From NCBI RefSeq assembly GCF_030316135.1, contig NZ_CP128185.1, positions 2,356,001 to 2,420,000 of the forward strand: a DNA stretch of 64,000 bases, given 5' to 3'. Source of the DNA: Aliiglaciecola sp. LCG003. GTDB lineage: Bacteria; Pseudomonadota; Gammaproteobacteria; Enterobacterales; Alteromonadaceae. The notes under the pieces are model-generated. The model did not search any database, was not told the origin of the DNA, and worked only from the letters and a program-made list of their open reading frames with translations. A program made the position numbers and the translations under genes. Shown one piece after another: positions 338 to 16,327 of this stretch (position 1 is its first letter; every line of letters starts with the position of its first letter).

Positions 338-373
338 TTTTACACCTTATTATTCTTTTTATTTCCCTGTGCA

Positions 374-1696: not shown

Positions 1697-3257
1697 AACC
1701 TACCTCACGCAAAGATGATTTGATTTTTTCTTCTAATTTTGAACCTTTGTCCATCTGAGTAGATAACAAGTTTGTTAGCATCATCATCTCATCTTCAAAT
1801 GCTTCCTCTTCTTCCATTAAGCCTTCAGAATCAACATATCTTCCACATGAAAGGACATAGTCAGCATTTCTAATATCTTCAGTCGTAGCTGACTTACAAA
1901 AGCCTTCAATGTTCTCGTATGCTCCATTTGATAGATTAGAATTTGCCCAATTATGGTAGGTACTTGCTATTTTTTCTATATCTTTTTCATTAAAATGCCA
2001 TTGAGATCTAGAGCCTTCAATTAATTGCCCAGTATGTCTAACATCTATGAATAGTGTTTCATTTTTTCTAGATTTGTTTTTGTTAATAAATATTAAACAT
2101 GCTGGTATTTGAGTATTGATAAATAATTTACCGGGCAAACTAACAATACACTCTACAATGTCGTCTTCAATGATGCCTTTTCGAATAACATTTTCATTAT
2201 TTGATGTCGAAGTTAACACTCCATTAGCCATTACAATACCAGCACGCCCATTTTCATTCAAATGATGAATCATATGTTGAATCCACGCATAGTTAGCGTT
2301 GCTATTTGAAGGCTCACCATACTTCCAACGAACATCACCTCGAACCTTGCTTGCTCCCCAATCTTCCTGATTGAACGGTGGATTAGCTAAACAATAATCG
2401 GCTCTTAAATCTTTGTGTAAGTCGTTTAAAAGGGTATCACCGTTTGATTCGCCTAAGTCGAAGTCGATGCCACGGATGATCAAGTTCATCGCAGCCAGCT
2501 TCCAAGTGGTATGAGTATACTCCTGACCGTATACTGAAATGTCACCACGTTGACCACCATGAGATTCCATGAACTTTTCAGACCATACAACCATACCAGC
2601 CGAACCGATAGCTGGCTCATATAGCTGGCCTTTGTGTGGAGCTACGATCTCAACGAGTACCTTCACAATTGAATCAACAGTATAGAACGCACCAGCGCCT
2701 TTACCTTCTGCTAATGCAAACTTACCTAAGAAGTATTCGTAAGCTTGACCTAGTACGTCAGCCGCTTTGTGATCTTTGCTATTGAAGCCAATTTTTGAGA
2801 ATAATTCGATTAACTCACCGAATTTGGCAGGTGGAAGCTTTAATAGACTGAAGCCTCTGTATAGCAAGCCTTTAACTTTAGGGTTAGCTTTTTCGATTTC
2901 ACCCATTGCTTCATCAAGGATCTTAGCAATATTGGTATCTTTAGCTTGCTTGGCGACATGTTCCCAACGAGCATTTTCAGGAACCCAGAATACGTTTTCA
3001 GCGTTGTATTCATCACGATCATTAATGATAGCTAGACGGTCTTCTTCATCTTCCTCGTAATAATCTTCATTATTTGGATCTGCTGTCCATTCTTCTAAAT
3101 TTTTCTGCATTTCAACGAATGAGTCAGAAACATATTTTAAAAAGAGAAGACCTAAAACGGGGTGCTTGTATTCGCCCGGTTCTAATGCACCGCGCAATTT
3201 AACGGCTGATTGCCAAAGCATTTCGAAGAAATCTTTACCGCCTATATTTTTTACCAT
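1686..3257 (-). CDS. hsdM: Type I restriction-modification DNA methyltransferase subunit
   Basis: A 523-aa N6-adenine methyltransferase. It has the HsdM N-terminal helical domain (residues 1-150), the region GAFYTVDSIVKVLVEI, an AdoMet-binding loop EPAIGSAGM near residues 214-222, and the catalytic motif NPPF at about 292-295. As part of the M2S complex it methylates the host recognition site and, with HsdR, forms the restriction enzyme. It is the first gene of the hsdM-hsdS-hsdR operon. A perfect 8-1-8 palindrome sits about 30 bp upstream, and a ribbon-helix-helix gene is divergently arranged. The whole locus is island cargo, consistent with a defence function. Confidence 0.95.
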   Translation of the reverse strand: MVKNIGGKDFFEMLWQSAVKLRGALEPGEYKHPVLGLLFLKYVSDSFVEMQKNLEEWTADPNNEDYYEEDEEDRLAIINDRDEYNAENVFWVPENARWEHVAKQAKDTNIAKILDEAMGEIEKANPKVKGLLYRGFSLLKLPPAKFGELIELFSKIGFNSKDHKAADVLGQAYEYFLGKFALAEGKGAGAFYTVDSIVKVLVEIVAPHKGQLYEPAIGSAGMVVWSEKFMESHGGQRGDISVYGQEYTHTTWKLAAMNLIIRGIDFDLGESNGDTLLNDLHKDLRADYCLANPPFNQEDWGASKVRGDVRWKYGEPSNSNANYAWIQHMIHHLNENGRAGIVMANGVLTSTSNNENVIRKGIIEDDIVECIVSLPGKLFINTQIPACLIFINKNKSRKNETLFIDVRHTGQLIEGSRSQWHFNEKDIEKIASTYHNWANSNLSNGAYENIEGFCKSATTEDIRNADYVLSCGRYVDSEGLMEEEEAFEDEMMMLTNLLSTQMDKGSKLEEKIKSSLREVGYGL

Positions 3258-3288
3258 AAGAAACTTTACCTTTTGTTTGTGCTATGAC

Positions 3289-3305
3289 ATTAAATCCGAT
3301 TTAAT
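3289..3305. promoter_or_regulatory. 17-bp palindrome upstream of hsdM
   Basis: ATTAAATC-C-GATTTAAT is a perfect 8-1-8 inverted repeat, 32 bp upstream of the hsdM start in the divergent hsdM/RHH intergenic region. The position suits an operator controlling restriction-modification expression. The binding protein is unknown; the adjacent ribbon-helix-helix protein is a candidate. Confidence 0.5.
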
Positions 3306-3381
3306 CTTATTAAGTCACAGTAACTTAAATTCTTTTTTACTGCCAATTACATTACAAAATTAAGCTTGTTATGTCAAGTAA

Positions 3382-3398
3382 TGTTATGTAACATAACA
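3382..3398. promoter_or_regulatory. 17-bp palindrome upstream of the RHH gene
   Basis: TGTTATGT-A-ACATAACA is a perfect 8-1-8 inverted repeat, 40 bp upstream of the RHH start at 3438. It has the same 8-1-8 geometry as the palindrome before hsdM but a different sequence. It shares the outer TGTTA/TAACA bases with the TGTTAC-N3-GTAACA sites further left to right in the island. Probable operator or promoter element. Confidence 0.5.
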
Positions 3399-3437
3399 AA
3401 TGTATTTAATAAAATTAATAATATTGGAAATCTTATT

Positions 3438-3602
3438 ATGGCTGTTGGTAAATCAGGTCGTGTAGTTGTCGAAATTGACCCTGAACTAAAAGAGCAATTG
3501 CATAAAGCAATAAAGATGCAAGGCAAGACTTTAAAAGAGTGGTTTGAAGAAAAGGTTAAGCAAGACTTTCCAAATTTAAAGTCGAGTGCCGATAAAGAGT
3601 AA
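3438..3602 (+). CDS. Small ribbon-helix-helix (Arc/CopG-like) DNA-binding protein
   Basis: A 54-aa protein starting at ATG 3438, chosen because a GGAA motif lies upstream and the RHH fold begins immediately. A further-upstream start at 3366 would add 24 residues running through the palindrome at 3382-3398. The strand GRVVVEIDPELKEQLHKA followed by KTLKEWFEEKVKQDF matches the beta-strand, helix, helix layout of MetJ/Arc repressors. It is transcribed divergently from hsdM. A role as regulator of the restriction-modification genes or of the neighbouring palindromes is an inference. Confidence 0.7.
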   Translation: MAVGKSGRVVVEIDPELKEQLHKAIKMQGKTLKEWFEEKVKQDFPNLKSSADKE

Positions 3603-3609
3603 AACTATC

Positions 3610-3651
3610 TCTGAATTAAATGTTACGTGGTAACAGTAATTTTAATTCAGA
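3610..3651. promoter_or_regulatory. Nested palindrome containing a TGTTAC-N3-GTAACA site
   Basis: The outer arms TCTGAATTAAA (3610-3620) and TTTAATTCAGA (3641-3651) are a perfect 11-bp inverted repeat. Between them lies TGTTACGTGGTAACA (3621-3635), a complete copy of the island's 5-3-5 palindrome. It starts 8 bp after the RHH stop codon, between two convergent genes, so it may act as terminator, as operator, or both. No run of T follows on the plus strand. Confidence 0.5.
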
Positions 3652-3717
3652 AACTTTTATAAGTATGAATAAATTCAATTAATGACTAGGGCTGTATAAA
3701 CCTATAGTAAAATTGAA

Positions 3718-3738
3718 GCTTGGCTCCAAGGGCCAAGC
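3718..3738 (-). terminator. Weak hairpin downstream of the Phd-like gene
   Basis: GCTTGGC and GCCAAGC form a 7-bp stem around a 7-nt loop. Read on the minus strand it is followed by TTCAATTTT, so it could end transcription of the Phd-like gene whose stop is at 3776. The T tract is interrupted, so efficiency is uncertain. Confidence 0.4.
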
Positions 3739-3750
3739 GAGGAATGATAA

Positions 3751-3774
3751 TAACATTTAATGTTACCATTTAAC
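3751..3774. promoter_or_regulatory. Overlapping palindromes: TAACATT-T-AATGTTA and an imperfect 5-3-5 site
   Basis: A perfect 7-1-7 inverted repeat covers 3751-3765. It overlaps GTTAC-CAT-TTAAC (3762-3774), a one-mismatch copy of the GTTAC-N3-GTAAC palindrome. It abuts the stop codon of the Phd-like gene. A binding site is likely by similarity to the other copies, but no gene start lies directly downstream. Confidence 0.4.
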
Positions 3775-3775
3775 G

Positions 3776-3964
3776 CTAATTGTTATGTAAGCTTGTGCTA
3801 ATGCTATGACTACTCAGAAACTTTATAGTTTCTTTATACTCTTCAGCAGAAATCATAACAGCAACACGTTTACCATCTTCCATAATTTGAACATGCTCAT
3901 TGTGTATTTTAGATAGCATCTCATCAAAAGTATTTTCAACATCTCGAACATCTAAAGTTTTCAT
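3776..3964 (-). CDS. Phd/YefM-like antitoxin, no partner toxin seen
   Basis: A 62-aa protein with the Phd/YefM pattern: an opening MKTLDVRDVENTFDEMLSKI, a central VQIMEDGKRVAVMISAEEYKE strand-helix and a short C-terminal tail. These proteins normally neutralise a Doc, YoeB or similar toxin and repress their own operon. A strong GGGGGAA ribosome-binding site precedes the ATG, and a 5-3-5 palindrome lies 21 bp upstream of it. No toxin-sized reading frame follows within the 173 bp before the convergent RHH gene. It may therefore be an orphan, act as a stand-alone repressor, or counter a toxin encoded elsewhere. Confidence 0.65.
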   Translation of the reverse strand: MKTLDVRDVENTFDEMLSKIHNEHVQIMEDGKRVAVMISAEEYKETIKFLSSHSISTSLHNN

Positions 3965-3984
3965 TATTCCCCCATTTAATTTTT

Positions 3985-3997
3985 GTTAGTAGGTAAC
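3985..3997. promoter_or_regulatory. 5-3-5 palindrome before the Phd-like gene
   Basis: GTTAG-TAG-GTAAC has one mismatch to the GTTAC-N3-GTAAC consensus. It lies 21 bp upstream of the Phd-like ATG (minus strand), the same position as the site before the next gene. Likely operator overlapping the promoter. Confidence 0.5.
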
Positions 3998-3999
3998 AT

Positions 4000-4398
4000 T
4001 TAATTTGATTCTTTATCATTTTTATCAATCTCAACGTCAATACGCATAAATGCTTTATCATCTACAAATGCCACTTCACCAACTTTAAGTTCTTCTAGTT
4101 CAAAAGGTAGTCTACTGATATTTTCGTGAGCTAATGTTACGCCTTTAAACTTCCTATTTGCTCTATCTTTTCTAGCCACAATTTCACTCGCTTTAATAGT
4201 TTTATTCACATGCTTAGAAGACTGCTGAGGTAATGCGACAACAGAATCACAGCTATTGCAAACTGCGACCAGTACATTCTCAACCATAGCTGAATTATCA
4301 CTTAGTGCTACGTCACGTTTCATAAATGTTGTATCAACAACAGATTCGCATTTATGACATATTGCTTTGCTATTATCACCTGCTTTTGCAGTTTTCAT
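4000..4398 (-). CDS. Small protein with paired CxxC motifs (zinc-ribbon-like), function unknown
   Basis: A 132-aa protein. CHKC near residue 15 and CNSC near residue 48 form a four-cysteine zinc-ribbon layout, loosely like the N-terminal domain of MqsA-type antitoxins. A basic stretch (about residues 65-85, rich in K and R) and a C-terminal beta-rich part follow. I do not recognise the family. It has its own perfect 5-3-5 palindrome 19 bp upstream of the ATG, so it is probably a separate transcription unit under the same control as its neighbours. A regulatory, DNA- or protein-binding role is the most that can be inferred. Confidence 0.55.
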   Translation of the reverse strand: MKTAKAGDNSKAICHKCESVVDTTFMKRDVALSDNSAMVENVLVAVCNSCDSVVALPQQSSKHVNKTIKASEIVARKDRANRKFKGVTLAHENISRLPFELEELKVGEVAFVDDKAFMRIDVEIDKNDKESN

Positions 4399-4416
4399 AA
4401 CTACTCAATTATTTAT

Positions 4417-4429
4417 GTTACATGGTAAC
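4417..4429. promoter_or_regulatory. 5-3-5 palindrome before the zinc-ribbon gene
   Basis: GTTAC-ATG-GTAAC is a perfect 5-3-5 inverted repeat, 19 bp upstream of the start at 4398 (minus strand) and just past the stop of the upstream gene at 4431. The spacing places it over the expected promoter, which suits a repressor operator. Confidence 0.55.
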
Positions 4430-4430
4430 G

Positions 4431-4817
4431 TTAATCTTTATTAAAACTATTCAGTTCAGATTTAAGTTTTTGAATAGCTCTAATCTTGTTAAACGACTGA
4501 TACTTCTCATTGTTGTAGCTAGCAGTAGTACCAGTTGGCTTGTGGGTAACAGATACACCTTTCACAGCACTACCAATAGTGTCATGAGGTGAAGCACAAG
4601 TATCAAACTGTAGGTCTTCCTGCTTAACATTCATTGATTTCAATAAGCTTAAATACTCCATTGTATCCGTATCGCAATCAAGATGCTCTTCACATCTCAT
4701 CATTATCATTTTTCTAATTCCGCCCTGTTTATCCAATGACGGGGTAATAATTTCTGTTTTGATATTAATATGTTTCTTGTGACATGCAGAGCATTCTTCA
4801 TCTTTAATTTCTGTCAT
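4431..4817 (-). CDS. Small cysteine-rich protein, function unknown
   Basis: A 128-aa protein opening with a CSACHKKH motif and a second Cys/His group about 35 residues later (MMRCEEHLDCD), suggesting metal binding. The C-terminal half is hydrophilic and ends in a helical KxRAIQKLKSELNSF stretch. The start overlaps the end of the preceding 187-aa gene by 14 bp, so the two are translationally coupled and probably act together. I do not recognise the family. Its zinc-finger-like look parallels the following gene, but sequence similarity between the two is not obvious. Confidence 0.5.
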   Translation of the reverse strand: MTEIKDEECSACHKKHINIKTEIITPSLDKQGGIRKMIMMRCEEHLDCDTDTMEYLSLLKSMNVKQEDLQFDTCASPHDTIGSAVKGVSVTHKPTGTTASYNNEKYQSFNKIRAIQKLKSELNSFNKD

Positions 4818-5367
4818 TGTGTTTCCTAAGTTCGAATACCTTATTTGCTAACTCATTCCAGCTCTTAGCATTTAATAAATTTTTAAGATGCAATAACTTC
4901 ATATAGGCATCATAACTGAATTCAATTTGTCTGGAATCACTATTAGCTTTTTTATACTCTTGCTGTCTTAAGCGGCTGTTATATCGCTTCCAAAGTCGAT
5001 CTGGCAGCTTACTAATGACAGATTGAAACTCTTCTATATCTTCAGCCTTAACGACAGGAATTCGTCCCTTAAGTTCGTCAATTACCGCTTGAATTTCTGA
5101 CTTACTTTTTGAGGAACTATTAACAGATTCTATTTTTTTATTAACATTTCCAAAGCTTTCTAGCAATCTATCTTTATTACCAGTTGTTTTTGAAAGTCTA
5201 TCATGAAGGTTGTTTAAATAGTCAGTGAAGTATTTTTCCTCATCATACGTATCTAATGAACCAAATAACTGCTTGAAATACTGTGGATTGTGATAAAAAT
5301 CCATAACAATTTGAATGATTTTATCTTCACTCATCTGGCGAGCCGGGCGACCACGTTTACTACTCAT
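4804..5367 (-). CDS. Putative DNA-binding protein with AT-hook-like N-terminus
   Basis: A 187-aa protein. The start at 5367 is chosen because AAAAGGA precedes that ATG and the protein then opens with MSSKRGRPARQ, an RGRP AT-hook-like motif; an earlier start at 5397 lacks a ribosome-binding site. The middle is helical and charged. The C-terminus (RQIEFSYDAYMKLLHLKNLL) has a strand followed by helices, resembling a ribbon-helix-helix end. Two palindromes of the island family precede it, so it is a candidate autoregulator of this palindrome network. Family not recognised. Confidence 0.5.
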   Translation of the reverse strand: MSSKRGRPARQMSEDKIIQIVMDFYHNPQYFKQLFGSLDTYDEEKYFTDYLNNLHDRLSKTTGNKDRLLESFGNVNKKIESVNSSSKSKSEIQAVIDELKGRIPVVKAEDIEEFQSVISKLPDRLWKRYNSRLRQQEYKKANSDSRQIEFSYDAYMKLLHLKNLLNAKSWNELANKVFELRKHNDRN

Positions 5368-5415
5368 GTAGATTCCTTTTAAAAAATAATACAACATTAT
5401 AGTCGATTATTTATT

Positions 5416-5453
5416 GTTACCAAGTAACTTTAAAAAACATATTACCGGGTAAT
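5416..5453. promoter_or_regulatory. Tandem 5-3-5 palindromes, 25 bp apart
   Basis: GTTAC-CAA-GTAAC (5416-5428) and ATTAC-CGG-GTAAT (5441-5453) are each perfect 5-3-5 inverted repeats, with starts 25 bp apart. They lie 49 and 74 bp upstream of the ATG at 5367. The tandem arrangement resembles a cooperative repressor site at the head of the small-gene cluster. Confidence 0.55.
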
Positions 5454-5509
5454 AAAAAGCATTTTTATTTAGCAAGTTTGGGGTGGTTCAAGTGAATAAG
5501 TTAGAGCAG

Positions 5510-7684
5510 CTAAAAAAGTGAGTTTAAAATATACCTTAAGCCCGTTTTACGCTTTTCTGTTGCCCCTTTCTTTCGCATCGCTTTTTCAAAAAAAGATTTA
5601 GGTCCCACAAGATGCACTTCTTTTTCTGCCCTTGTTATTGCCGTATATATCCAGTTTCTATCTACACCTACAGAGTCAATGATTGGGACAATTATTCGCT
5701 TGAATTGACTGCCTTGAGCTTTATGCAAACTCATGCAATACGCAAGTTCTACTGTCTTAATTATATCGTGATACAATTTGATTTTTTGGTTGCTGTCAGC
5801 CAATAGAACCTCTCCTAGATGTCTACCATCAGCTTGAGTAATTAATTTACCAACAGTTCCATTTTGTACATCTAACTCAAAATTGTTTTTTGTAAAAATA
5901 ACTGGGTCATTAATTTTCAATGGTGAATTAACATACTGATCGAGGAACGGATATCTCAAATTATCACTATCCAAATTTGTAGCTTTCTGGCAAAGTTCAT
6001 TTAGAATGTTTATTCCCGCTATCTCTGGGGTATATGCTGGAGAAACTATTTGACTCCCCTTTGGTTGCAGTTCATATAATTCAACACATAATTTATTTAT
6101 CTGCTCTATTTCCACACAATGAAAATGTACATTACCATAGCTCAATTTGCTTGGTATTATTCCTTTCGCAATTAAATTACTATACTCAGGTATTCCGCTG
6201 CTTTTTTCTTGCCTCTTAACTGCGTCAAGCTTACAGTTTGTCACCCTTCTACTGTAGATTAGATCGTTTAATATTAAACCGAGGTCTATAGGTGGTAATT
6301 GATTTGGATCTCCAACGAGTAATATGCGGGTGTCAGGGTTTATATGATTTATCAGCTTAAACATTGTCGAAACGTCTAACATAGACGCTTCATCAATTAT
6401 CAAAACATTCTCTTTCTCATGACTCAATAAATTGGGTTCAATGGGTTTGTCATGTAATAGCCTTGCAATCGTGGTACTTTTATAGCCAGTAGATTCAAAC
6501 ATCCTTTTTGCTGCACGACCTGATAATGCAGCACAGTGAGGTAAGATATTTAATACTTTATATCCTGCAAGAATTGCCTTAAGTACTGAAGTTTTTCCTG
6601 TTCCAGCCCCTCCAGAAACAATACATATTTTAGATTTTAATGCTTTATATATTGCCCTAACCTGACCTAGCGATAACTTGAAAGGTAATGTCTTTAATGC
6701 GCACCTAAACGCAAGTTTAAATTTAGCGTTTTCTAATTCACTAGGTTTCCATTCAGTTAAGTATTTAACTCTTAGAGCTATTGATTTTTCTTTAACATAT
6801 GATGCTGATGCTTGGTAAGTTTCTTGCTCTCTGTTGAATATAACTACCTTTTTATAAGATTGTTTCTGAACACATTCAAATGCTTTAGAGACGAGAGCGC
6901 TACTCTTTAGTAGTACTTCTAACCTTCTTGTTAAATTACTCTTACTTGCTACCGTGTGCCCCGATTTTTCATGCTGTTGAATAGCGTGATGAAAAGCAGC
7001 TGTTAACCTTCTATCATCATCGTTAGCGATATCAAATTTTTCTTTCGCAATGTGATCAACGGTTGAAAAGTCCAAATCGAATATTGACAGTACATAAGGA
7101 TTATTATTTATTTGCTCAAACGTTTCCTTGCCATGATATTTTAGCAGACGTTGTTGGATTGGAATTGGTATTCCAATTTCTACAAGCCATTGTGCATATT
7201 TAAGATTAGAGTACTTTTTAAAGCCATCAATTAGCTTTTTTACTTTGGTATTGCTTAATTTCTTACTAAGAAGCTCTTCATTCTTGTCATAAACATGTTT
7301 ATAGATATTGTTACCAAAATCCCCCCATATACTCCTTGCCGTGTCTGCGGATATCCCTTTAAAGCTGGGTTCACGATCAAGTAACCAAACAAAACCTTCT
7401 TCATCATCAGGCATGACAAAACACAAACTTTCTGGGTTTTCATAATAGCGATGAAGTTTATTATAATTACCAACCTTGTCCTCTGAATACCCTTCTACGT
7501 TCCAGTGTTGCCCAATCAGTGGCTCAAGAGGAACTAGACTATTTTTTACATTAATAAAAACAATTCGCTTGCGGTCTCCATTATAATTACCTTTTTCAAT
7601 TGGCACACCGCTAAATGAAAGCAGCTTTTCATCGCACTGATAAATTTGAGTTACGCGAATTAAAAGGCTTGTTTTATTAATCAA
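5510..7684 (-). CDS. RecD-like SF1 DNA helicase of the island
   Basis: A 724-aa protein. The N-terminal 330 residues are unlike standard RecD. The helicase core then follows: Walker A SGGAGTGKTS near residue 357-366, Walker B IIDEASML near 430, GDPNQLPP, and a UvrD-like C-terminal module with LHKAQGSQF and YTAITRAEK. This order matches RecD2/TraA-type 5'-3' helicases. It is the last gene of the island's mobility operon and its start overlaps the stop of the 163-aa gene by 4 bp. A role in processing or replicating the element's DNA during transfer or integration is inferred from context; a defence role is an alternative. Confidence 0.85.
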   Translation of the reverse strand: MINKTSLLIRVTQIYQCDEKLLSFSGVPIEKGNYNGDRKRIVFINVKNSLVPLEPLIGQHWNVEGYSEDKVGNYNKLHRYYENPESLCFVMPDDEEGFVWLLDREPSFKGISADTARSIWGDFGNNIYKHVYDKNEELLSKKLSNTKVKKLIDGFKKYSNLKYAQWLVEIGIPIPIQQRLLKYHGKETFEQINNNPYVLSIFDLDFSTVDHIAKEKFDIANDDDRRLTAAFHHAIQQHEKSGHTVASKSNLTRRLEVLLKSSALVSKAFECVQKQSYKKVVIFNREQETYQASASYVKEKSIALRVKYLTEWKPSELENAKFKLAFRCALKTLPFKLSLGQVRAIYKALKSKICIVSGGAGTGKTSVLKAILAGYKVLNILPHCAALSGRAAKRMFESTGYKSTTIARLLHDKPIEPNLLSHEKENVLIIDEASMLDVSTMFKLINHINPDTRILLVGDPNQLPPIDLGLILNDLIYSRRVTNCKLDAVKRQEKSSGIPEYSNLIAKGIIPSKLSYGNVHFHCVEIEQINKLCVELYELQPKGSQIVSPAYTPEIAGINILNELCQKATNLDSDNLRYPFLDQYVNSPLKINDPVIFTKNNFELDVQNGTVGKLITQADGRHLGEVLLADSNQKIKLYHDIIKTVELAYCMSLHKAQGSQFKRIIVPIIDSVGVDRNWIYTAITRAEKEVHLVGPKSFFEKAMRKKGATEKRKTGLRYILNSLF

Positions 7685-8172
7685 AGTACACCATTCACTT
7701 CATTTATGACTTGAATAGTCTCCCTATGCCGTCCAACTTCTTCACTAGCTGTCTTCAATTGAAACTCCAGAGCAGCAATTTTTTTGTTAAGTGAAAACAC
7801 CTCATTTTCTAATTGTGCATTTCTCTTAAGCAGTGCCTTATTGGTTTTATTCATGTCATCAACTAAAACAGGATCACTACAATTTTTATTAACACCCCCT
7901 TTAACACTGCTCACTGGAGTTTCTTTATCTACTAGGAGATTGCTAGCTATTAGGTCTTTAACTATTTTTTCTTCAAATTTTTCAAATGCTTTTATCAACT
8001 GAGGGTTTCCGTTCTTGGGTTTCAACGCCCCATAACCAAATCCAGCAGATTCTGCAACAAGCTGTTTATTTAACTTGTAAGTATTGAGGTTAATAAAAGA
8101 CAACAACTCATTCAGATCTAAATCTTTATGCCAATCATTGAACTTACTAATATTTACTTGAGCGTCAGCCAA
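7681..8172 (-). CDS. HTH/coiled-coil accessory protein of the recombinase operon
   Basis: A 163-aa protein. The first 70 residues contain a helix-turn-helix-like segment (LNKQLVAESAGFGYGALKP). Residues about 105-155 form a heptad-patterned coiled coil (ALLKRNAQLENEVFSLNKKI). This N-terminal DNA-binding plus coiled-coil design is common in partner proteins of tyrosine recombinases on mobile islands. It lies 20 bp downstream of the 432-aa recombinase gene and overlaps the helicase gene by 4 bp. It could be a recombination directionality or DNA-bending factor. The family is not firmly recognised; it may correspond to one of the non-recombinase partners in trio-type elements. Confidence 0.6.
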   Translation of the reverse strand: MADAQVNISKFNDWHKDLDLNELLSFINLNTYKLNKQLVAESAGFGYGALKPKNGNPQLIKAFEKFEEKIVKDLIASNLLVDKETPVSSVKGGVNKNCSDPVLVDDMNKTNKALLKRNAQLENEVFSLNKKIAALEFQLKTASEEVGRHRETIQVINEVNGVL

Positions 8173-8192
8173 ACTTTCCCCCTCACAGTTTA

Positions 8193-9491
8193 TTAAAAAA
8201 CTTCATGTAACACAGAATCATATTTTTCAACACAAGATACTGCATCAAATGATTCTTTAACAAGTTCATTGACTTGTCCTTTGTGGGCAATAACGATTAA
8301 TTTAGCCATATCAATATAATGTTTATAAGTAGTGGCAATGTCCTCGTGTCCCATTTGTTGCATAACAACTTCAGCAACCGCTAAATACAAGACATTGGTT
8401 TCTTCAGTCAGCAGTTTTTCTTTGAATGTACGAATCATGAACATAGTGGGCCACCAATCTCTAGCATCATAAAATGTCGTCCCTTCTCTAAATTCAGGGT
8501 GATTTTTAATTGCTAAGTTTTTTGCATCGCTTCCTCTAGAAGAAACCATAGTCGGAGTAACTGGCTTTCCAAATTTATTTAAAAATAAAATATGAGGAGG
8601 ACATTCCTTACCATATCGTTTTGTATATTTTTCTTTTCTTTCATAGAAATGCTTATTGATATAGTTATTTTCTAATCTTTCAAGATCCTTAATATTGATG
8701 ACAATATCCCTCGATTTGCCCCCCTTGCTGTTAGAAACGTGGTATTCAATTGTTTTCGTGGATTGGTCCATATCGGAATAAGGCATTATATGACTGTTAG
8801 AACCCGTTCCAATGTAAGGAAATCTACATAAATCTATGGGTCTCATCGCAGTCCCTAAACACAGCATAAATATTGCATCGTAAACTGGATCGTTAAATGA
8901 CTCCCTAAACCAGTTAATTTCATTTTGCGAGATCAAAGTCTTGTTTTTTTTCTGCCTACTTTCTTTGTCTAATACCGTTACATTCTTGGCATCAATAGAT
9001 ACTTTTGCTTTTTTCGATATATAATTTAATAAGCTGTCGTTTCTAAAGTTCGCTTTCCACTGCTTCTTTTTTACCTGAACACATGTTGGATAACCTGACT
9101 CATTAAGCCAGTTAAAAAATACCAAAAGTGCTTGGGCATCTTCATAAATTGATTTTGAAGTCGGCTTAACAGACTGAGATTTCACTCGTTCTATTTGTCT
9201 GTGAATTTGCCACCTTTTGATGTCGATATTCGAAGCTAAAACATGATATTCAGATAAATCTTTACCTTTAAACTTATCTAACGTTGAAAGAAAGGTATAG
9301 AACTTGGTAATGACAGAAGAATAGCGATTAGAAGTTTGAATTGAGTTATTGCAACTATAACTTAAAAATAAATTTGGATGGCTAAGTAACGTTTCTCGGT
9401 TCTTTGACTTTTCAATAATCAAATGGTGAGAAATTGGCTTTCCTGTTTCAAGGTGAATGTAATTCTCTACTCTCCTATATAAATTTAACAA
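8193..9491 (-). CDS. Tyrosine recombinase (432 aa)
   Basis: An N-terminal SAM-like core-binding domain (residues 40-150) is followed by a catalytic domain with the expected residues. These are Arg in GTAMRPIDL (about R217), Lys around SNSKGGKSRD, Arg in YDARDWW (about R344) and His in QQMGHEDI (about H382). The nucleophile is Tyr in TTYKHYIDMAK (about Y392). The HxxR motif is altered to DARD, which is tolerated in some families. It should cut and rejoin DNA at the element ends. It lies 1 bp after the 325-aa gene. Its likely job is to act with the larger recombinases on the att site in tmk, as TnpA does beside TnpB in Tn554. Confidence 0.9.
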   Translation of the reverse strand: MLNLYRRVENYIHLETGKPISHHLIIEKSKNRETLLSHPNLFLSYSCNNSIQTSNRYSSVITKFYTFLSTLDKFKGKDLSEYHVLASNIDIKRWQIHRQIERVKSQSVKPTSKSIYEDAQALLVFFNWLNESGYPTCVQVKKKQWKANFRNDSLLNYISKKAKVSIDAKNVTVLDKESRQKKNKTLISQNEINWFRESFNDPVYDAIFMLCLGTAMRPIDLCRFPYIGTGSNSHIMPYSDMDQSTKTIEYHVSNSKGGKSRDIVINIKDLERLENNYINKHFYERKEKYTKRYGKECPPHILFLNKFGKPVTPTMVSSRGSDAKNLAIKNHPEFREGTTFYDARDWWPTMFMIRTFKEKLLTEETNVLYLAVAEVVMQQMGHEDIATTYKHYIDMAKLIVIAHKGQVNELVKESFDAVSCVEKYDSVLHEVF

Positions 9492-9492
9492 A

Positions 9493-10470
9493 TTACTCCC
9501 CCTGTTGAACTTTAAAGTGAGTCACTTCATCAAAACCATCTGTTAACTTAGGCAATTGCATTTTATCTGCCATCTCAAATTCCTCTTGAGGCACATGTGA
9601 AAAGTGAAACTTTCTTTGCGCCTTTGCAACTATATCGCTCTCAGTTACAGGAACCCATATAGAAATATGACCTTTGCTTTTAATTTTATTTAGGTAAAGT
9701 CTAAGCTCAATCGTAGAATAAACAGGTAGACTAATGACGATTACATCCCCGCCAAAATTTTGTTTAACTCTTGATAAAAAGGTTGAGACCTGACTCAGAT
9801 ACCGTTCAATAAAAATAACAATTCTAACTTTTTTGTTTTCAGGTAAAGCCTGAACTTTTAGTATCACTTTCTCGATAGCTAAATCTTTTTCTTCTTCAAA
9901 AACATCCATATCTTTTGTTTTCAAAAAATTTTTAAAAACGGCTAACAACTCTGGCTCAATATGGATAACGTTACTTTCAACATAAGTTTCTATATTTATT
10001 GATAACATTTTAGCTTCTAGTGTCACTAAATCATTTTTCAATTTTTTATTATCTTTAACTAGTTTACTAAAGTGCAATGCTTGCTTTTCCATCGCTATAC
10101 GAACTTCATCAGCTTCATGCAATGCAATATCATTGTTCATCATTGTCGTGAAAACTCTGGCTTCTACATCCTTAATTTCTTTTTGGTGAAATACGAGCTG
10201 CTGTCGTAGCTGTTCCTTTAAGTTTTCAATAGTGGTGTAAGAATTTTGGAGTAAAAGCGCTACTGTTTCATCATCTTCACTTTCATTGTCCAATAAGTCA
10301 GTATATGGATTCTCGCCTTTAATATATGGAACTAAATCGTCTAAATCTTGATAAATATACTGCCGTGATTTGCCAATTTTTTTAGCCGCAGATGTAATAT
10401 TTAATTTTTTGGTGTCTGTTCCAGAATAATGCTCGATGATTACTTGGATAAGTTTTTGTCGAGTACTCAC
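9493..10470 (-). CDS. HTH/coiled-coil protein between recombinase genes
   Basis: A 325-aa protein. The N-terminus has a helix-turn-helix (ITSAAKKIGKSRQYIYQDLDDL, residues 24-45). The middle is a long coiled coil (about 75-165). The C-terminal 120 residues look like a compact alpha/beta domain with alternating hydrophobic strands (VRIVIFIERYL, DVIVISLPVY, GHISIWVPV). It overlaps the 677-aa recombinase gene by 4 bp (ATGA) and is followed after 1 bp by the 432-aa recombinase, so it is an integral part of the mobility operon. A DNA-binding assembly factor for the recombination complex is the best guess; no family name is certain. Confidence 0.65.
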   Translation of the reverse strand: MSTRQKLIQVIIEHYSGTDTKKLNITSAAKKIGKSRQYIYQDLDDLVPYIKGENPYTDLLDNESEDDETVALLLQNSYTTIENLKEQLRQQLVFHQKEIKDVEARVFTTMMNNDIALHEADEVRIAMEKQALHFSKLVKDNKKLKNDLVTLEAKMLSINIETYVESNVIHIEPELLAVFKNFLKTKDMDVFEEEKDLAIEKVILKVQALPENKKVRIVIFIERYLSQVSTFLSRVKQNFGGDVIVISLPVYSTIELRLYLNKIKSKGHISIWVPVTESDIVAKAQRKFHFSHVPQEEFEMADKMQLPKLTDGFDEVTHFKVQQGE

Positions 10471-12500
10471 GCTAGTTTCTCTTTATCCTGAAAGTTATGA
10501 TTTTTTTGTAGCTTTTCCAAATGCTGCTTTTTAGCCGCAATTTTTTTAATAAGGGAGCTTTTTGCCTTAGCGGAGATTTGACCAATAGTGTTTTCCACTA
10601 AAGATTCATAAAATAAAATATCTTTTTGAATCAACTCTGCTGTTTCTTCAAGAACAACTGCATTTTCACATGCAACATCACAATTAGTAAGTTCTGGGGC
10701 TATACCTTCATAGTAGTCTCTGCCCTGCAAGCAAGGAGGCATTGCCTCTCGTGAAATAGTACCTGAGAATAAGCAGAAATTGCCCAGTGTCGTTCGTTCA
10801 ACATGAAGAGGAACTCCCGATTGCATTAGGTAGATAATGTATTCAAAAACTCGCATTCTAATTAACTTGCCTCTGAAAACCTTATTTTTTTCCTCTTTAA
10901 ACTTTTCGCCGAAACTCTCTGCAAATTTACCAGATGCTTTACCATCTACCACAGCGGTAATAATTTCAGAAAAGTTTTCGGCAAAGTGAACTTCTAGTGT
11001 TGAAGCTACGCTACCAATCATGTAAGGATTTCTGGCAATATACCTTAATGTCATTGTGTAGCTCTTATGACCGAAAAGCATTCTAATGATATCTATATTC
11101 TTCTCTGAACGCTTTATTAATATATCAGCAGTTGTTTTGCGAAGACGATGCGGGTGCAGATCATCAATACCCAGTTGCTCACCTAGTTTTTTAAAGACTT
11201 TTCCAACTGAGCGCTTAATTTTCTTAGCTTCTCTCGATAAATTATTATCAAATATGAACTCACTATCTCTTTCAACTATTTCACTGCGGATTAATTTATA
11301 TTCTTCTACATTTTTACCAAAGAAATTAGGAATTTCTATTGTATCTGTTTCGCCAAAAAAATTAGGATCATCTGTTGTTTTGAATCTCGTAATATCCAGA
11401 AACCATTTATCAACATCCTCTATATACTCAAAATCTGAAAATTTAAGGCTAGATAACTCTCTTAATCTCATACCTGTGATAACCCCTAAAGTTACCAATA
11501 AAGAATTTTTGACTTCGTTAAGTGCTAATCTAAATCCTTTTCTCCAGTTAACCCTCCATCCTTGGTATGTTCGCCCTTTTTGGGTCGTTTCCGTATGATT
11601 TAGAATAATAGAAACAATTGGCTTATCATTAAGCGTTGAAGAGAAAATATCACTAATCTTGCTTAATCGTTGTTCTGTATTCCCTACTATTACTGAAGAA
11701 TTCCAAAGCTTTAACTTTTTTAATTTCTTTTGGATTATATCTAACTCTGGTAGTCCCACCTCAATCCAGTCGATTGAATATGTCATTAAATTCGCAAGCT
11801 CTATCTCAGATAATGGCTTCCAACTATTTACATTTTTAGAAGAATTAACTGTTACTGACTTTCTTCTATCCTTTGTATCAATTTTACTAAGAGTAACGTC
11901 TGATAAAGATAACTCTTTTGGTAAATACCCATCTAGTGATAGGGATAACCAAAAAATTATTCCGTGAAAAAGGAACTCATAGTGTCTTTTAACATTACTT
12001 GCTTCTGCCATGTCTAAAGCTTTATTTAACATTTTAGCTGAAATTGCTTGTATGGAATCTTCAGTAAAATCAAGTCCATTAGGTTCCAGAACATATTCCC
12101 TTATTGCTTTCAACCAAGAATAAAAATATGTATCAGTGGACAACCAACTCGTTATTTTTCCATACGGGTTGTTACCCGGTAGCAAATAATACGTATAACA
12201 TTTAGCAAAAAGTTCCCCTCCTAATACTGAGCTTGACATGATAAACTGATTTCGCCCTAATCTTTGCAACACATCAGAATCCCACCTTTCATCACCAAAT
12301 TTCGATTTATCTGTTACAGGAAAATTTCCATCAGGTCTCTCATTTAACAGTGATAGCAAAGGTACTTTTGATACTTTCTTGTTCTTTGATTTAGAAATAT
12401 TTAATGTGTCTTCGAGACTCGACTGTGCATACTCTAAAGAATCTTCCTCTAGCTGATTTAGTTCCTTTTCGATTAAAGTCTCTAGGCTATATACTTGCAT
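10467..12500 (-). CDS. Large tyrosine recombinase (677 aa) with C-terminal cysteine region
   Basis: The catalytic domain occupies about residues 320-500 and is complete: Arg in TGMRLRELSSL (R345/R347), Lys at about 374 (RFKTT), HRLR (H451 and R454), His in LFGHKSYT (H478) and Tyr in TLRYIA (Y487). A 300-residue N-terminal domain precedes it. A C-terminal tail with a cysteine group (CLFSG, PPCLQG, NCDVAC at about 575-620) follows and may bind a metal. Size and layout recall TnpB of Tn554 or the large integrases of trio-type islands. It overlaps its neighbours by 1 and 4 bp. Confidence 0.88.
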   Translation of the reverse strand: MQVYSLETLIEKELNQLEEDSLEYAQSSLEDTLNISKSKNKKVSKVPLLSLLNERPDGNFPVTDKSKFGDERWDSDVLQRLGRNQFIMSSSVLGGELFAKCYTYYLLPGNNPYGKITSWLSTDTYFYSWLKAIREYVLEPNGLDFTEDSIQAISAKMLNKALDMAEASNVKRHYEFLFHGIIFWLSLSLDGYLPKELSLSDVTLSKIDTKDRRKSVTVNSSKNVNSWKPLSEIELANLMTYSIDWIEVGLPELDIIQKKLKKLKLWNSSVIVGNTEQRLSKISDIFSSTLNDKPIVSIILNHTETTQKGRTYQGWRVNWRKGFRLALNEVKNSLLVTLGVITGMRLRELSSLKFSDFEYIEDVDKWFLDITRFKTTDDPNFFGETDTIEIPNFFGKNVEEYKLIRSEIVERDSEFIFDNNLSREAKKIKRSVGKVFKKLGEQLGIDDLHPHRLRKTTADILIKRSEKNIDIIRMLFGHKSYTMTLRYIARNPYMIGSVASTLEVHFAENFSEIITAVVDGKASGKFAESFGEKFKEEKNKVFRGKLIRMRVFEYIIYLMQSGVPLHVERTTLGNFCLFSGTISREAMPPCLQGRDYYEGIAPELTNCDVACENAVVLEETAELIQKDILFYESLVENTIGQISAKAKSSLIKKIAAKKQHLEKLQKNHNFQDKEKLA

Positions 12501-14539
12501 TAGTCATCCTCAAAAATCACTCTTAATGATCCCATATCAACAGGCAGTAATGAATCAAACTTCCGCTTATATCTTGCCGCTTGTTTTAATGCTTTTTCAT
12601 CTTTCCATTCATTGATAATATATCTAATTACTTGAAGTTCATTTTCCAACTCCGTTGATTTAAATCCATCTGAAGAGTCTAGTAAGCGCACCAGTGTCTC
12701 ATCTCTATCCATGATGAAAGGTAACGAGTCCTCAAAGATACGGACTTGACTACAAAACAAACAAAGTGATATTTCGTTACATTTTGCCCCATCTTTTATA
12801 ATTTTTTCAGCGTTTGGAAAATCAGGACTAAAAGAGTTCCCACACCCCCATAAAGCTCGGTCATGTGAAGGTAAATAAAACATTCTTAATGAGCCAATTA
12901 ATTTTTTAGTAGCTTTATGTTTATGTACGAGACCTTTAAAATTCTTTTTGCGTAATCTTTGTGTAATTTCTTTTAATTCTTCAGAAAGTCTTTCCAATCT
13001 TTTTTGCTGAGCAATAGATGAGTTATCGTAATGGATATCAGTGGTATCAATACTTTCATGGCCTTGTTGCAACGAGACTAACGTTAGTGGACTATTACTT
13101 TCATCCCGAACATATCTAATCCAAGTTGGTCGTAACTTAGGAGTTAATTCTTTTACGCTAGTTATTCGACCTTTAGTATCAAGTATAACTGTTTCACTTA
13201 GTAATTTATTGATTGCTGCTGTGTATATACTCTTTGAGGATATTGAAGTAAATCTGCCAACAGGCTCTTTTTTGTTAATGGATGACTTCGCAGTCATATG
13301 ATTAACACCTCTCATTACCAAAAACAACTCACTGTAATATAAATCACTTGAATTAAAAGACTCTCTACTCAACTTTGATAAAGGTTTAGATAATTTTTTA
13401 GCCAAACGAATCAAATTAAATGCGGAGTACTTATTTGACTTATCAGATGCTGCCAAAAACTGTTTAGGATTAAAGTACGGTAAGTTGCCACTCTGAGATT
13501 TTTCTTTTTCTGCTGTTATCAATAAATGATCGGAATCAATTGAACCAGATAACACATGTTCATAATTATTTGGATCTATTGCAAAAACAGTTTCTTTGTT
13601 CCAACCAGTTTGTAAGCATAAAAATAGTGCTAAAACTGCTTGTTCTTCAGGTTGAGGAAAATATTTGCCTAGCAGCTCGTTTAGTGTTGGTAATGCGACA
13701 AGCTTTTCTTCTATTTTTCGTATACGTCGATGCTGCGCGTGACGGTAAGTAGCATAAATCAAATCTTCTAACGTATTTAGTTTCAATAGGTTAACTGACG
13801 CTGTTTGAACTTTGTCATTTAAAGTTTCATGAAAAATTAAAAAATCGTCAAGAGATATCCCAAAAGGATGATTTATAGATAGAAGCGTTTTTAGAACTCT
13901 TTTTTCATTTGGAATCCAGTACCAATTCCCTTTTATATTAAATTTAGCTTGCTGTTTAATGATTTGTTTTTTTATTTCTTCTATTGTGTAGGGTTCTAAC
14001 TTTTCAACTTCATCTATAAACTCAATTTTCTTATAAAGCTTATCTACCTTACTAACAAATAAGCTTGATAAAGAATTAAATGCCTCTTTAGATAACGGTT
14101 CAGTTACCCTGTTTCTACTAGCGGATTTAAATGTCTTTTCTGAAATAAGCGGAAATCCATCATCATTTTCATTAGCAACTTTTCGCAGTACGCTGAAGAA
14201 ACGAGAATGAGTATCTTTAGGGCATTTATTGGATTTTACATATTGCTCAAATTTCCCCATTACTTCAGGTATGACATCTGTTATTGATGTTAAATGAGCA
14301 CTTTTAGGCATCCCATTTTCATAAGATGCCTTAAAATCTAAAAAAAGGTTAATGCCTGTTCTGAATGAATATGCTCGTGCATAGCTAATGACAGCACCAT
14401 AGCTTACAAAAGCGTAGTGAAGATCTGCATATAGGTCATTATCAAAAGTAAAATCTGAGCGTTCGAGGTAATTACATGGAACAATCCTGCCATCACGACA
14501 CTCAACTTTTGTCGTATCTCTATGAAGTTCTTTATACAT
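12500..14539 (-). CDS. Degenerate tyrosine-recombinase-like protein (679 aa) with C-terminal Cys cluster
   Basis: The catalytic-domain outline is visible but incomplete. The box usually holding the first Arg reads LQTGWNKETV (311-316), with Arg replaced. The HxxR box reads LTPKLRPTW (R470 kept, His lost). GHESIDTTDIHYDN retains H494 and Y504. A C-terminal cluster C566, C587, C593, C596 (CNEISLCLFC) looks metal-binding. It is probably a structural or DNA-binding partner rather than an independent strand-cutting enzyme. It follows the island tmk after 4 bp and overlaps the next recombinase by 1 bp, placing it second in the operon. Confidence 0.75.
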   Translation of the reverse strand: MYKELHRDTTKVECRDGRIVPCNYLERSDFTFDNDLYADLHYAFVSYGAVISYARAYSFRTGINLFLDFKASYENGMPKSAHLTSITDVIPEVMGKFEQYVKSNKCPKDTHSRFFSVLRKVANENDDGFPLISEKTFKSASRNRVTEPLSKEAFNSLSSLFVSKVDKLYKKIEFIDEVEKLEPYTIEEIKKQIIKQQAKFNIKGNWYWIPNEKRVLKTLLSINHPFGISLDDFLIFHETLNDKVQTASVNLLKLNTLEDLIYATYRHAQHRRIRKIEEKLVALPTLNELLGKYFPQPEEQAVLALFLCLQTGWNKETVFAIDPNNYEHVLSGSIDSDHLLITAEKEKSQSGNLPYFNPKQFLAASDKSNKYSAFNLIRLAKKLSKPLSKLSRESFNSSDLYYSELFLVMRGVNHMTAKSSINKKEPVGRFTSISSKSIYTAAINKLLSETVILDTKGRITSVKELTPKLRPTWIRYVRDESNSPLTLVSLQQGHESIDTTDIHYDNSSIAQQKRLERLSEELKEITQRLRKKNFKGLVHKHKATKKLIGSLRMFYLPSHDRALWGCGNSFSPDFPNAEKIIKDGAKCNEISLCLFCSQVRIFEDSLPFIMDRDETLVRLLDSSDGFKSTELENELQVIRYIINEWKDEKALKQAARYKRKFDSLLPVDMGSLRVIFEDD

Positions 14540-14543
14540 AGAG

Positions 14544-15167
14544 CTAATTAATTATTTTATCTAATGTGCTTATCGCATCTCGAACAACAGATTCTAATGG
14601 TTGCAGAGCATCTATCACTGTGAAACGATTGGGAAATTCCTTCGCTTGTTCCAGATATCCTTGTCTTGCTCTTTCTAAAAAGGCAATGTCAACATTTTCC
14701 ATTCTATCTAAACCTTCACCTCTACTTTTAACTCTTTCAAGTCCGACCAATGGTTCCAAATCTAAAACAATTGTCATATCAGGTCTAAAATCGCCTAAAG
14801 CCAAATCATTTAATTGATCTACTATTTCCTTAGGTAAACCTCTACCATACTGTTGAAAACTTACAGTGGCTGATTCAAATCTGTCCGAAATGACATGAAT
14901 ACCTTTTTCTAAAGCAGGGATAATCTTTTCATGGATATGTTGGGCACGTGCAGCGGCAAATAGCATTAATTCGGTAGTGCTACACATTTCGGAATTGGAA
15001 TTATCTAAAAGTATGTCCCTAATTTTTTCACCGATTTCAGTACCACCGGGTTCACGAGTTGAAATATATTCGATCTTGTTTGCGTCTAGATGTTCTTTCA
15101 AATGCTTTAATACTGTTGACTTTCCTGCCCCATTTGAGCCATCACAGACTATTAACTTACCTCTCAT
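14544..15167 (-). CDS. tmk: Island-encoded thymidylate kinase (replacement copy)
   Basis: A 207-aa dTMP kinase, which phosphorylates dTMP to dTDP, an essential step of dTTP synthesis. It has the P-loop DGSNGAGKST (residues 9-18), TREPGGTEIGE, the DRF motif (DRFESATVSFQQYGRG) and the LID-like ESRG...LDRME region (written KSRGEGLDRME). The ATG at 15167 is preferred over a GTG at 15194 because GGTAAGGG precedes it and the N-terminus then aligns residue for residue with the host fragment. Host MSGKFIVIEGLEGA corresponds to island MRGKLIVCDGSNGA. It is the first gene of the mobility operon. It should restore the function lost by insertion into the host tmk. Confidence 0.95.
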   Translation of the reverse strand: MRGKLIVCDGSNGAGKSTVLKHLKEHLDANKIEYISTREPGGTEIGEKIRDILLDNSNSEMCSTTELMLFAAARAQHIHEKIIPALEKGIHVISDRFESATVSFQQYGRGLPKEIVDQLNDLALGDFRPDMTIVLDLEPLVGLERVKSRGEGLDRMENVDIAFLERARQGYLEQAKEFPNRFTVIDALQPLESVVRDAISTLDKIIN

Positions 15168-15200
15168 ACAACCCTTACCATATTTATAAATCACTTAAAT

Positions 15201-15249
15201 CTTGTTTACACTATACACAAAACAAATATACAATCAACTAGTTTACACT
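15201..15249. repeat. 12-bp direct repeats at the island's right end
   Basis: CTTGTTTACACT (15201-15212) and CTAGTTTACACT (15238-15249) differ by one base and start 37 bp apart. They lie about 20 bp inside the junction with host tmk. One overlaps the -10 and the other abuts the -35 of the tmk promoter. They could be recombinase arm sites, autorepressor operators, or both. Confidence 0.6.
15210..15237 (-). promoter_or_regulatory. Predicted sigma70 promoter of the island tmk/recombinase operon
   Basis: On the minus strand TTGATT (15237-15232), a 16-bp spacer and TATAGT (15215-15210) give a good sigma70-type promoter. The expected start near 15203 leaves a leader of about 36 nt before the tmk ATG at 15167. 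It sits inside the island, so the operon carries its own promoter as well as lying downstream of the host fab operon. Confidence 0.55.
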
Positions 15250-15250
15250 T

Positions 15251-15310
15251 TTAACTTTCCGAATATAATGCGCCTTCAAGGCCTTCGATGACAATAAATT
15301 TTCCTGACAT
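15251..15310 (-). pseudogene. tmk: Host tmk, 5' remnant split by the island
   Basis: Twelve bp after the mltG stop an ATG opens a frame reading MSGKFIVIEGLEGA, the conserved N-terminus of gammaproteobacterial thymidylate kinase. The next codons of the P-loop should be GKS or GKT. Instead the frame reads LYSES and stops at 15251. mltG-tmk is the normal gammaproteobacterial order, so this is the 5' end of the resident tmk. The break after codon 14 marks the island junction at about 15,268. Confidence 0.93.
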
Positions 15311-15322
15311 AGATTTTGTATA

Positions 15323-16327
15323 CTACTTATTTTTTAATTGATAGATCCGAACAGCCTGATTGTGCTCTGTTAACGTGCGAGAGAATTGATGAGTACCATC
15401 CCCTTTGGAGACAAAATAAAGCTCTTGAGTGTCCAAAGGATGCAGTGCTGCATCTATACTTAACTTGCTCGGCATCGCTATCGGTGTGGGCGGTAACCCT
15501 TTAATTACGTATGTATTGTAAGGAGTTGCTTGCTTAAGATCCCGTCGGCGAATGTTACCATCAAACTCATCTCCAATACCATAAATCACCGTAGGATCCG
15601 TTTGTAAACGCATATTTTTCCGTAGCCGATTCACAAAGACACCTGCTATACGTGGCCGTTCAGATGCAACGCCTGTTTCCTTCTCTATTATTGATGCCAT
15701 TATCAGAGCTTGATAAGGATCGTCATATGGAAGGTCGCTAGCTCGTTGTTGCCAAGCCTGCTGTAAATAATTATTCATCGCCTGATGGGCGCGCAATACA
15801 ATATCTTCGACTTTGGTGTTGTGGGTAAATTGATAAGTGTCGGGTAACAACCAGCCCTCCAAAGCATTGCCTGCTAAATCGTCGTTGAACAAATCTAACC
15901 ATTCTTGCTGCTCTAGCATCGATGTTTTAAGAGCTGAATGTGTATTTAATTGACTCAACCAATCTCGCCAGCGCAAACCCTCAACTAGACTGATTTGGTA
16001 TGTTTTTTCTTTACCCTGTTGCAGCATTTGAAATACGCTTTTGACACTCATGCCTGGACTAATTTCATAGGTGCCGGATTTTATATGAGATAACTCCGGG
16101 TGTAATTTTAGCGCCATTTTGACTAGCAGCGGCTTTTCTAACAAGGATTGTTCAGCAAGACGATTGATCACAAAATGCGCATATTGACCACGTTTAATAA
16201 TGAGCAATTGCGGCCCCTCTAATCGGATAGATTGATTAAACGCTTGACTAACTTGTTGATGCACCACTATCACGCAAATTGCAGCTATCAGTACTAGAGC
16301 GCTTAACCACTTGAGCATTTTAAACAT
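15323..16327 (-). CDS. mltG: Endolytic peptidoglycan transglycosylase MltG
   Basis: A 334-aa YceG-family enzyme. An N-terminal membrane anchor (residues 5-22) is followed by a LysM-like region. The catalytic domain contains ASIIEKETGVASERPRIAGV with the active-site Glu, and LQTDPTVIYG. MltG cuts nascent glycan strands in the inner membrane and is thought to end their polymerisation. The start overlaps the pabC end by 8 bp. The host tmk start follows 12 bp after the stop, confirming the normal operon order up to the insertion point. Length is typical and the gene is intact. Confidence 0.95.
   Translation of the reverse strand: MFKMLKWLSALVLIAAICVIVVHQQVSQAFNQSIRLEGPQLLIIKRGQYAHFVINRLAEQSLLEKPLLVKMALKLHPELSHIKSGTYEISPGMSVKSVFQMLQQGKEKTYQISLVEGLRWRDWLSQLNTHSALKTSMLEQQEWLDLFNDDLAGNALEGWLLPDTYQFTHNTKVEDIVLRAHQAMNNYLQQAWQQRASDLPYDDPYQALIMASIIEKETGVASERPRIAGVFVNRLRKNMRLQTDPTVIYGIGDEFDGNIRRRDLKQATPYNTYVIKGLPPTPIAMPSKLSIDAALHPLDTQELYFVSKGDGTHQFSRTLTEHNQAVRIYQLKNK

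Follow-up and report, generated by a model that had tools for sequence, protein, structure and literature searches.

Results

A seven-gene operon lies at one end of an island that splits the host tmk

We analyzed a 64,000-nt stretch of the genome of Aliiglaciecola sp. LCG003 (NZ_CP128185.1, positions 2,356,001-2,420,000), hereafter the window, in which an operon of seven tightly spaced open reading frames (ORFs) runs on the minus strand from a thymidylate kinase gene (tmk) through genes for proteins of 679, 677, 325 and 432 aa, here called the core, to two further genes that encode a 163-aa protein and a helicase (Table 1). Position numbers are those of the window, and L003 denotes the DNA to its left. 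The ORF list bears out the close coupling described in a first-pass annotation of this DNA, with successive gaps or overlaps of +4, -1, -4, +1, +20 and -4 bp, so that no gap exceeds 20 bp and the overlaps amount to 1-4 bp. The operon accounts for just one end of a 25,116-bp island that has a GC content of 35% vs 42.5% in its flanks, and that interrupts the native tmk of the host.

In same-genus genomes this locus has an intact mltG-tmk-holB order. Here mltG occupies 15323-16327 and the native tmk begins right after it (ATGTCAGGAAAATTTATTGTCATCGAAGGCCTTGAAGGCGC, 15310-15270) to be broken in the P-loop, and holB and tatD are found 25 kb away to the left, where the continuation of the native gene (GCTGGTAAAAGTAGTGCG...) lies beside holB. 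The uninterrupted attachment site (attB) in tmk can be deduced as GGCCTTGAAGGCGCNGGTAAAAGTAG, with the island inserted within the P-loop codons (GLEGA|GKSS). A search of the whole genome with PF02223 returned two genes only, the native one without its start and a complete one in the island, which is the sole intact tmk in this genome. The tmk at 14544-15161 is foreign, not the host's own, and the host tmk has been cut in two by the island.

The island tmk occupies the former place of the host gene after mltG, starting ~108 bp inside the recombinase end of the island as the first gene of the operon and ending 4 bp before the next gene. Its ORF can be read from a GTG at 15194 (14544-15194), and the ATG at 15161 is the better start. 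In a tree with support of 100/99 and some long branches, the island Tmk of this genome and that of a Rheinheimera relative (52% identical) cluster with Tmk of megaplasmids and phages, separately from host Tmk, and the truncated native piece falls with its genus. The island tmk most likely substitutes for the broken host gene. Note that in Pseudomonas putida KT2440, where tmk is likewise split by an island, the island kinase is by genetics the sole thymidine monophosphate (dTMP) kinase, is essential and can be replaced by E. coli tmk (PMC10653934); by analogy, the island tmk would be the dTMP kinase of this cell. The island tmk is itself unlikely to be an integration target because its DNA differs from attB, with 9/14 bases alike at the crossover.

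Table 1. Positions of the island, the two parts of the host tmk, the operon, the cargo and the thyA-linked operons
Feature	Position	Strand	Basis or remark
Island, part inside the window	1-15269	-	Junctions and GC content
Island, part left of the window, 9,847 bp	L003:10154-20000		Junctions and GC content
Host tmk 5' remnant, 41 nt, start codon to P-loop	15270-15310	-	Broken by the island
Host tmk 3' part, adjoining holB, outside the window	L003:9574-10153
Two inward TGTAAAC repeats, recombinase end	15247-15241 and 15210-15204 (region 15204-15247)	-
Island tmk (substitute thymidylate kinase)	14544-15161	-	Pfam and NCBIfam dTMP kinase, above cut-off
679-aa recombinase-like core protein, GInt-type gene B counterpart	12500-14539	-	Partly lost active site, C-terminal Cys motif
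677-aa tyrosine recombinase, GInt-type gene C counterpart	10467-12500	-	PF00589; active site complete
325-aa helix-turn-helix (HTH)/coiled-coil protein, weak gene D counterpart	9493-10470	-	Weak TetR-type HTH
432-aa tyrosine recombinase, gene A counterpart	8193-9491	-	PF00589; YxxR replaces HxxR
163-aa protein, divergent VPA1267 family member, accessory	7681-8172	-	NF040697, E 7.7e-11, 42 bits, under the 90-bit cut-off
724-aa RecD2-like helicase, accessory	5510-7684	-	Pfam/NCBIfam; homologue at the same place in L068
Cargo: hsdS and hsdM, type I restriction-modification	374-3257	-
Three small cargo ORFs, 132/128/197 aa	4000-5397	-	Between helicase and hsdM
Three-recombinase operons ending in thyA	L041:4652-12317; L042:6924-14966 with L059:13881-14378; L107:7649-14511

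The core encodes two tyrosine recombinases and a degenerate third

Alignments confirm the earlier description of two recombinases that are catalytically complete but for one altered HxxR box, and of a third that has lost two catalytic residues and keeps His and Tyr. Specifically, the 677-aa protein has the full R-K-HxxR-H-Y set and the 432-aa protein keeps this set except that HxxR has become YxxR. The 679-aa protein is without Arg-I and the HxxR His, with R470, H494 and Y504 retained and invariant across nine homologues. Sequence searches of the PDB gave no match for the 679-aa family and a weak TetR-type HTH match for the 325-aa family.

We compared the core by profile-profile alignment with an operon of the GInt type on a Pseudomonas plasmid (L106), a reference picked by its organisation and not by verified ginABCD identity. 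The 432-aa protein matched gene A at 97%, the 679-aa protein gene B at 95% (its C-terminal Cys motif included), the 677-aa protein gene C at 94% and the 325-aa protein gene D at 54%. The core thus appears, as judged from these profiles, to be the gene-by-gene counterpart of a GInt-type operon in the order B-C-D-A vs A-B-C-D. Its nearest relatives are operons of the GInt type.

Inward-facing repeats mark both ends of the island

The 7-mer TGTAAAC has six copies in the island, all of them at its ends and all facing inward: two are within 66 bp of the recombinase end and four within ~251 bp of the opposite end, which consists of ~250 bp of AT-rich, repeat-bearing DNA. Random placement would give this distribution with a probability of ~1e-10, position alone being counted. 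The offsets of 22 and 59 at the recombinase end are identical in the Glaciecola relative, which again has four copies at its other end. As read from the sequence, the outermost copies lie 13 bp from ATATTC/ATATCC, which form an imperfect inverted repeat round the crossover. Possible flanking direct repeats are limited to GGCGC/GGGGC here and to TGGTCGT(T/C)A in the Glaciecola island (10-17 nt and imperfect in GInts).

Between the two recombinase-end repeats, a promoter-like TTGATT-16-TATAGT reads into the island tmk. Promoter-like boxes such as this one are consensus matches alone, six having been found vs 1.0 expected. Separately, an outward-reading TTTACA-16-TATAAT at 15242-15269 matches the consensus at 11/12 positions, takes its -35 box from the terminal TGTAAAC repeat and ends on the terminal base of the island.

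Related islands split tmk at a second site and carry a kinase

The core is not a set of genes brought together in this genome only, since the order 679-677-325-432 is kept in seven other genomes or metagenome-assembled genomes (MAGs) and on one Pseudomonas plasmid, with a partial copy in Thalassotalea. A clear 677-aa homologue occurs in four others among 395 family genomes, and four more loci came from a scan of named genomes. The core family is sparse, given that draws of 369 genomes from the class, searched with the 679- and 432-aa proteins, returned only this genome; a scan of IMG/VR with the 432-aa family gave no relatives.

The core was located beside a split tmk in Glaciecola, a member of the Kangiellaceae, Pseudomonas rubra and Rheinheimera, in each case adjoining the 3' half of tmk and holB. 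In these four relatives tmk is broken at a second site, which lies in the DRHD codons around codon 98 and is also the site used in KT2440. Relative to tmk, the operon points in opposite directions at the P-loop and DRHD sites. The first gene of the Glaciecola operon encodes a T4-type deoxynucleoside monophosphate (dNMP) kinase (PF21448), which has homologues at the same place in P. rubra, the Kangiellaceae and MAG L068. Rheinheimera instead carries a complete second tmk (PF02223) beside the 5' half. Directly after this substitute tmk is an AbiH-family abortive-infection gene (L052:13287-14171). An Acinetobacter relative also combines the core with a split tmk. Whole-genome searches of Glaciecola, P. 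rubra, Acinetobacter and the Kangiellaceae recovered both tmk halves and no intact tmk, with one further weak 229-aa match in the Kangiellaceae. Overall, in relatives with tmk cut mid-gene a kinase is present every time the ends were readable.

A gene of the VPA1267 family follows the core in Glaciecola, in L068 and, in divergent form, here, and a RecD2-like helicase follows it here and in L068. The first-pass annotation was right to describe a mobility operon in which several recombinase genes are coupled and defence cargo is carried, and to see in it a distinct subtype; two of the genes with which it proposed to define that subtype are better read in other ways, the helicase as an accessory seen here and in one relative, and tmk as a replacement for the broken host gene. 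The distant core on the Pseudomonas aeruginosa plasmid pNY5506-SIM (L075:5585-12668) has the same order (784-700-314-426 aa) without tmk, a PAPS-reductase-like gene before it and AAA/UvrD genes after it, and the permuted gene order is therefore not tied to tmk.

A parallel arrangement at thyA

In two genomes from the same family (G386 and G397) the host thyA is split by the element, whose A-B-C-D-type operon has a complete and distinct thyA as its last gene (Table 1). The substitute and split thyA are 26-30% identical, and neither genome has an intact PF00303 gene beyond the element's thyA. Between the two substitutes, and between them and a third on the P. putida plasmid pZXPA-20-602k, identity is 69-75%; this plasmid carries the same operon type, thyA included. 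The products of tmk and thyA act at consecutive steps of deoxythymidine triphosphate (dTTP) synthesis.

Cargo and neighbouring genes

Beyond the hsdS and hsdM genes in the window, the cargo continues leftward with hsdR, Gabija GajA/GajB and two ThsB-type TIR genes, and it includes a PDC-M50 candidate as further defence cargo. Among the small ORFs, the 132-aa product has CxxC motifs, the 128-aa product a weak match to a release-factor RF-1 domain and the 197-aa product a coiled coil. Outside the island is an ATP synthase-type cluster (L002:11030-17906) that resembles an N-ATPase operon, with beta first and alpha and gamma last.

Discussion

A proposed exchange of one thymidylate kinase for another

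We conclude with high confidence that this is a mobile island, related to GInts and to the KT2440 island, that inserts at a specific site within the essential tmk coding sequence and brings its own thymidylate kinase in exchange. In the mechanism that we propose, strand exchange would be the work of the 677- and 432-aa recombinases, the 679-aa protein would serve them as a structural partner, either the 325-aa HTH protein or one of the recombinases would bind the inward TGTAAAC arrays, and a circular form of the island would recombine with attB in tmk. The island tmk would be expressed from the host operon, from the promoter between the repeats, or from both, and the cell would therefore survive. 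Imprecise loss of the island should be lethal, and the cell probably cannot afford to lose it. The substitute would then permit the island to use a target that is conserved universally and would also, as an addiction device, anchor the defence cargo.

We also favour, with a good deal less assurance and only somewhat above even, a wider reading in which two distantly related sets of multi-recombinase islands share one strategy. Both would target universally conserved codons of essential genes for dTTP synthesis (tmk at two sites, and thyA) and carry a sequence-divergent substitute (Tmk, T4-type dNMP kinase or ThyA), usually coupled to the operon, such that integration is survivable, re-insertion unlikely and loss lethal.

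Several observations weigh against the exchange of kinases as we describe it. Thalassotalea sp. ND16A has the core together with an intact tmk: its core, on a 4,789-bp contig (L038), is 98% like that of Glaciecola, and the intact tmk is on another contig (L055). A core of this type can apparently sit elsewhere or be unfixed. The distant cores (G549 and Pseudomonas plasmids) are also not at tmk and, given these and the Thalassotalea case, the kinase is not obligate in the core. The recombinase ends of the Rheinheimera and P. rubra islands have no exact TGTAAAC copies, their arrays being weak or absent. Finally, the truncated native tmk remains an open frame (L003:9574-10299) with start codons within the island end (MMLFTYEKKRIFGAGKSS...), and it still matches PF02223 positions 6-185. 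It misses little beyond the first strand and the first P-loop glycine, and some activity may persist.

This last observation would favour an alternative in which the truncated native tmk still works and the island tmk is an ordinary passenger of nucleotide metabolism, as in many phages, that perhaps aids replication or defence; tmk genes are common on phages and megaplasmids. We regard this as unlikely, however. The truncated gene lacks its first beta strand, and the first glycine of its P-loop is gone (GLEGAGKS to RIFGAGKS). Relatives with tmk cut mid-gene have a kinase wherever their ends could be read, and the tmk halves of KT2440 have been shown to be non-functional (PMC10653934). Fusions of tmk to a start within the island end are seen in four of the five relatives whose junction was read. 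Such a frame might preserve translational coupling to the essential holB, or it may be a matter of chance.

It is still less probable that the pairing is a coincidence in which the cell gained the island tmk first and an unrelated island then hit the native tmk, by that time dispensable. The order of acquisition is unreadable from one genome and similar tmk genes occur on megaplasmids, yet the island tmk is within the island as the first gene of its operon, 4 bp from the next, and independent islands repeat the pairing with non-homologous kinases, as do thyA islands with thyA. Assignment to a Gamma-Mobile-Trio (GMT), Tn554 or RIT element, which several tyrosine-recombinase-like genes, a VPA1267-family neighbour and defence cargo might suggest, is very improbable in view of models that score strongly on a true GMT and find nothing here, and of core sizes that misfit RIT as published.

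What is new here, relative to the exchange of kinases already described in KT2440, is the swap of a Tmk for a Tmk, the P-loop target, the TGTAAAC arrays that face inward from the two ends (2+4) and the parallel at thyA. In the open-access literature we found no paper on comparable thyA islands, and on tmk islands none beyond PMC10653934. That paper put forward the KT2440 case as a first instance in which an acquired essential function had landed in a locus of the same activity; with a second target site, a homologous Tmk as the substitute and a second gene, thyA, the case now looks like a repeated design of mobile islands. This gives a testable reason why islands can use an essential, universally conserved coding sequence as attB, and it suggests how they could fix defence cargo in populations. 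Work on genome reduction or on drug targets should also reckon with the possibility that tmk or thyA in genomes of this kind belongs to a mobile element.

Comparison with known systems

Of the three element types that the first-pass annotation named, GMT was the one compared by sequence, and the likeness to it is confined to the accessory VPA1267-family gene and the defence cargo. GMT was rejected: the models for GmtY, GmtZ and GmtX (NF040693, NF047926 and NF040692) had no match here at E<=1, and as a positive control the same NCBIfam models scored 553, 1055 and 251 bits, respectively, on a true GMT. By profile comparison, the probability against GmtX/Y/Z is ~0-1%; against GInt-type genes it is 94-97% for all core proteins but the 325-aa one. 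RIT elements are set apart by description only, as three recombinases of 315-410 aa each (PMC10214605), or 300-410 aa with 34-bp inverted repeats, which the 679/677/325/432-aa core does not fit. Strand-biased circularizing integrative elements (SE; PMC10214605) likewise combine a pair of recombinases with a degenerate protein of recombinase fold and a helper of the HTH/coiled-coil type; their gene order is intA-tfp-intB-srap, and the profile match is weak (IntB 78%, IntA 45%). SE was rejected because profile comparison detected no likeness to the Tfp and Srap proteins of the pAQU1 SE.

The island resembles the GInts (Tn6571 family), in which ginABCD are proven recombination genes (PMC5385486), in having its operon at one end, variable cargo, a short AT-rich other end and insertion into specific genes, and restriction-modification cargo is common in GInts. 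Here and in the relatives, however, the order departs from ginA-ginB-ginC-ginD, and the D-like protein has 325 aa here vs ~170. A further difference is that the target is destroyed here and a substitute carried; at the reported GInt sites (ssb, ABC transporter) the gene products stay intact or the insertion is at a gene end. The thyA-linked islands share the splitting of an essential dTTP-synthesis gene and a different complete copy within the recombinase operon. They differ in their target, in having A-B-C-D followed by thyA, and in proteins that are only distantly related to the tmk-island core.

The best-known parallel is offered by the KT2440-type tmk islands (Wirth et al. 2023, PMC10653934), in which tmk is again split upstream of holB and a replacement kinase carried. 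The KT2440 kinase is flanked by four conserved genes encoding a TetR/AcrR-type regulator, two tyrosine recombinases and one unknown protein (PMC10653934), which by published description, not by protein comparison, fit the 325-aa, the 677- and 432-aa, and the 679-aa proteins here. The likeness extends to the core, which is shared with the dNMP-kinase islands of P. rubra, the Kangiellaceae and Glaciecola, and with the Acinetobacter relative. In contrast to the T4-type dNMP kinase of KT2440, the kinase here is a bacterial-type PF02223 Tmk, as it is in Rheinheimera, and instead of the DRHD-codon site (split 294 + 339 bp) the island here occupies the P-loop site in the opposite orientation.

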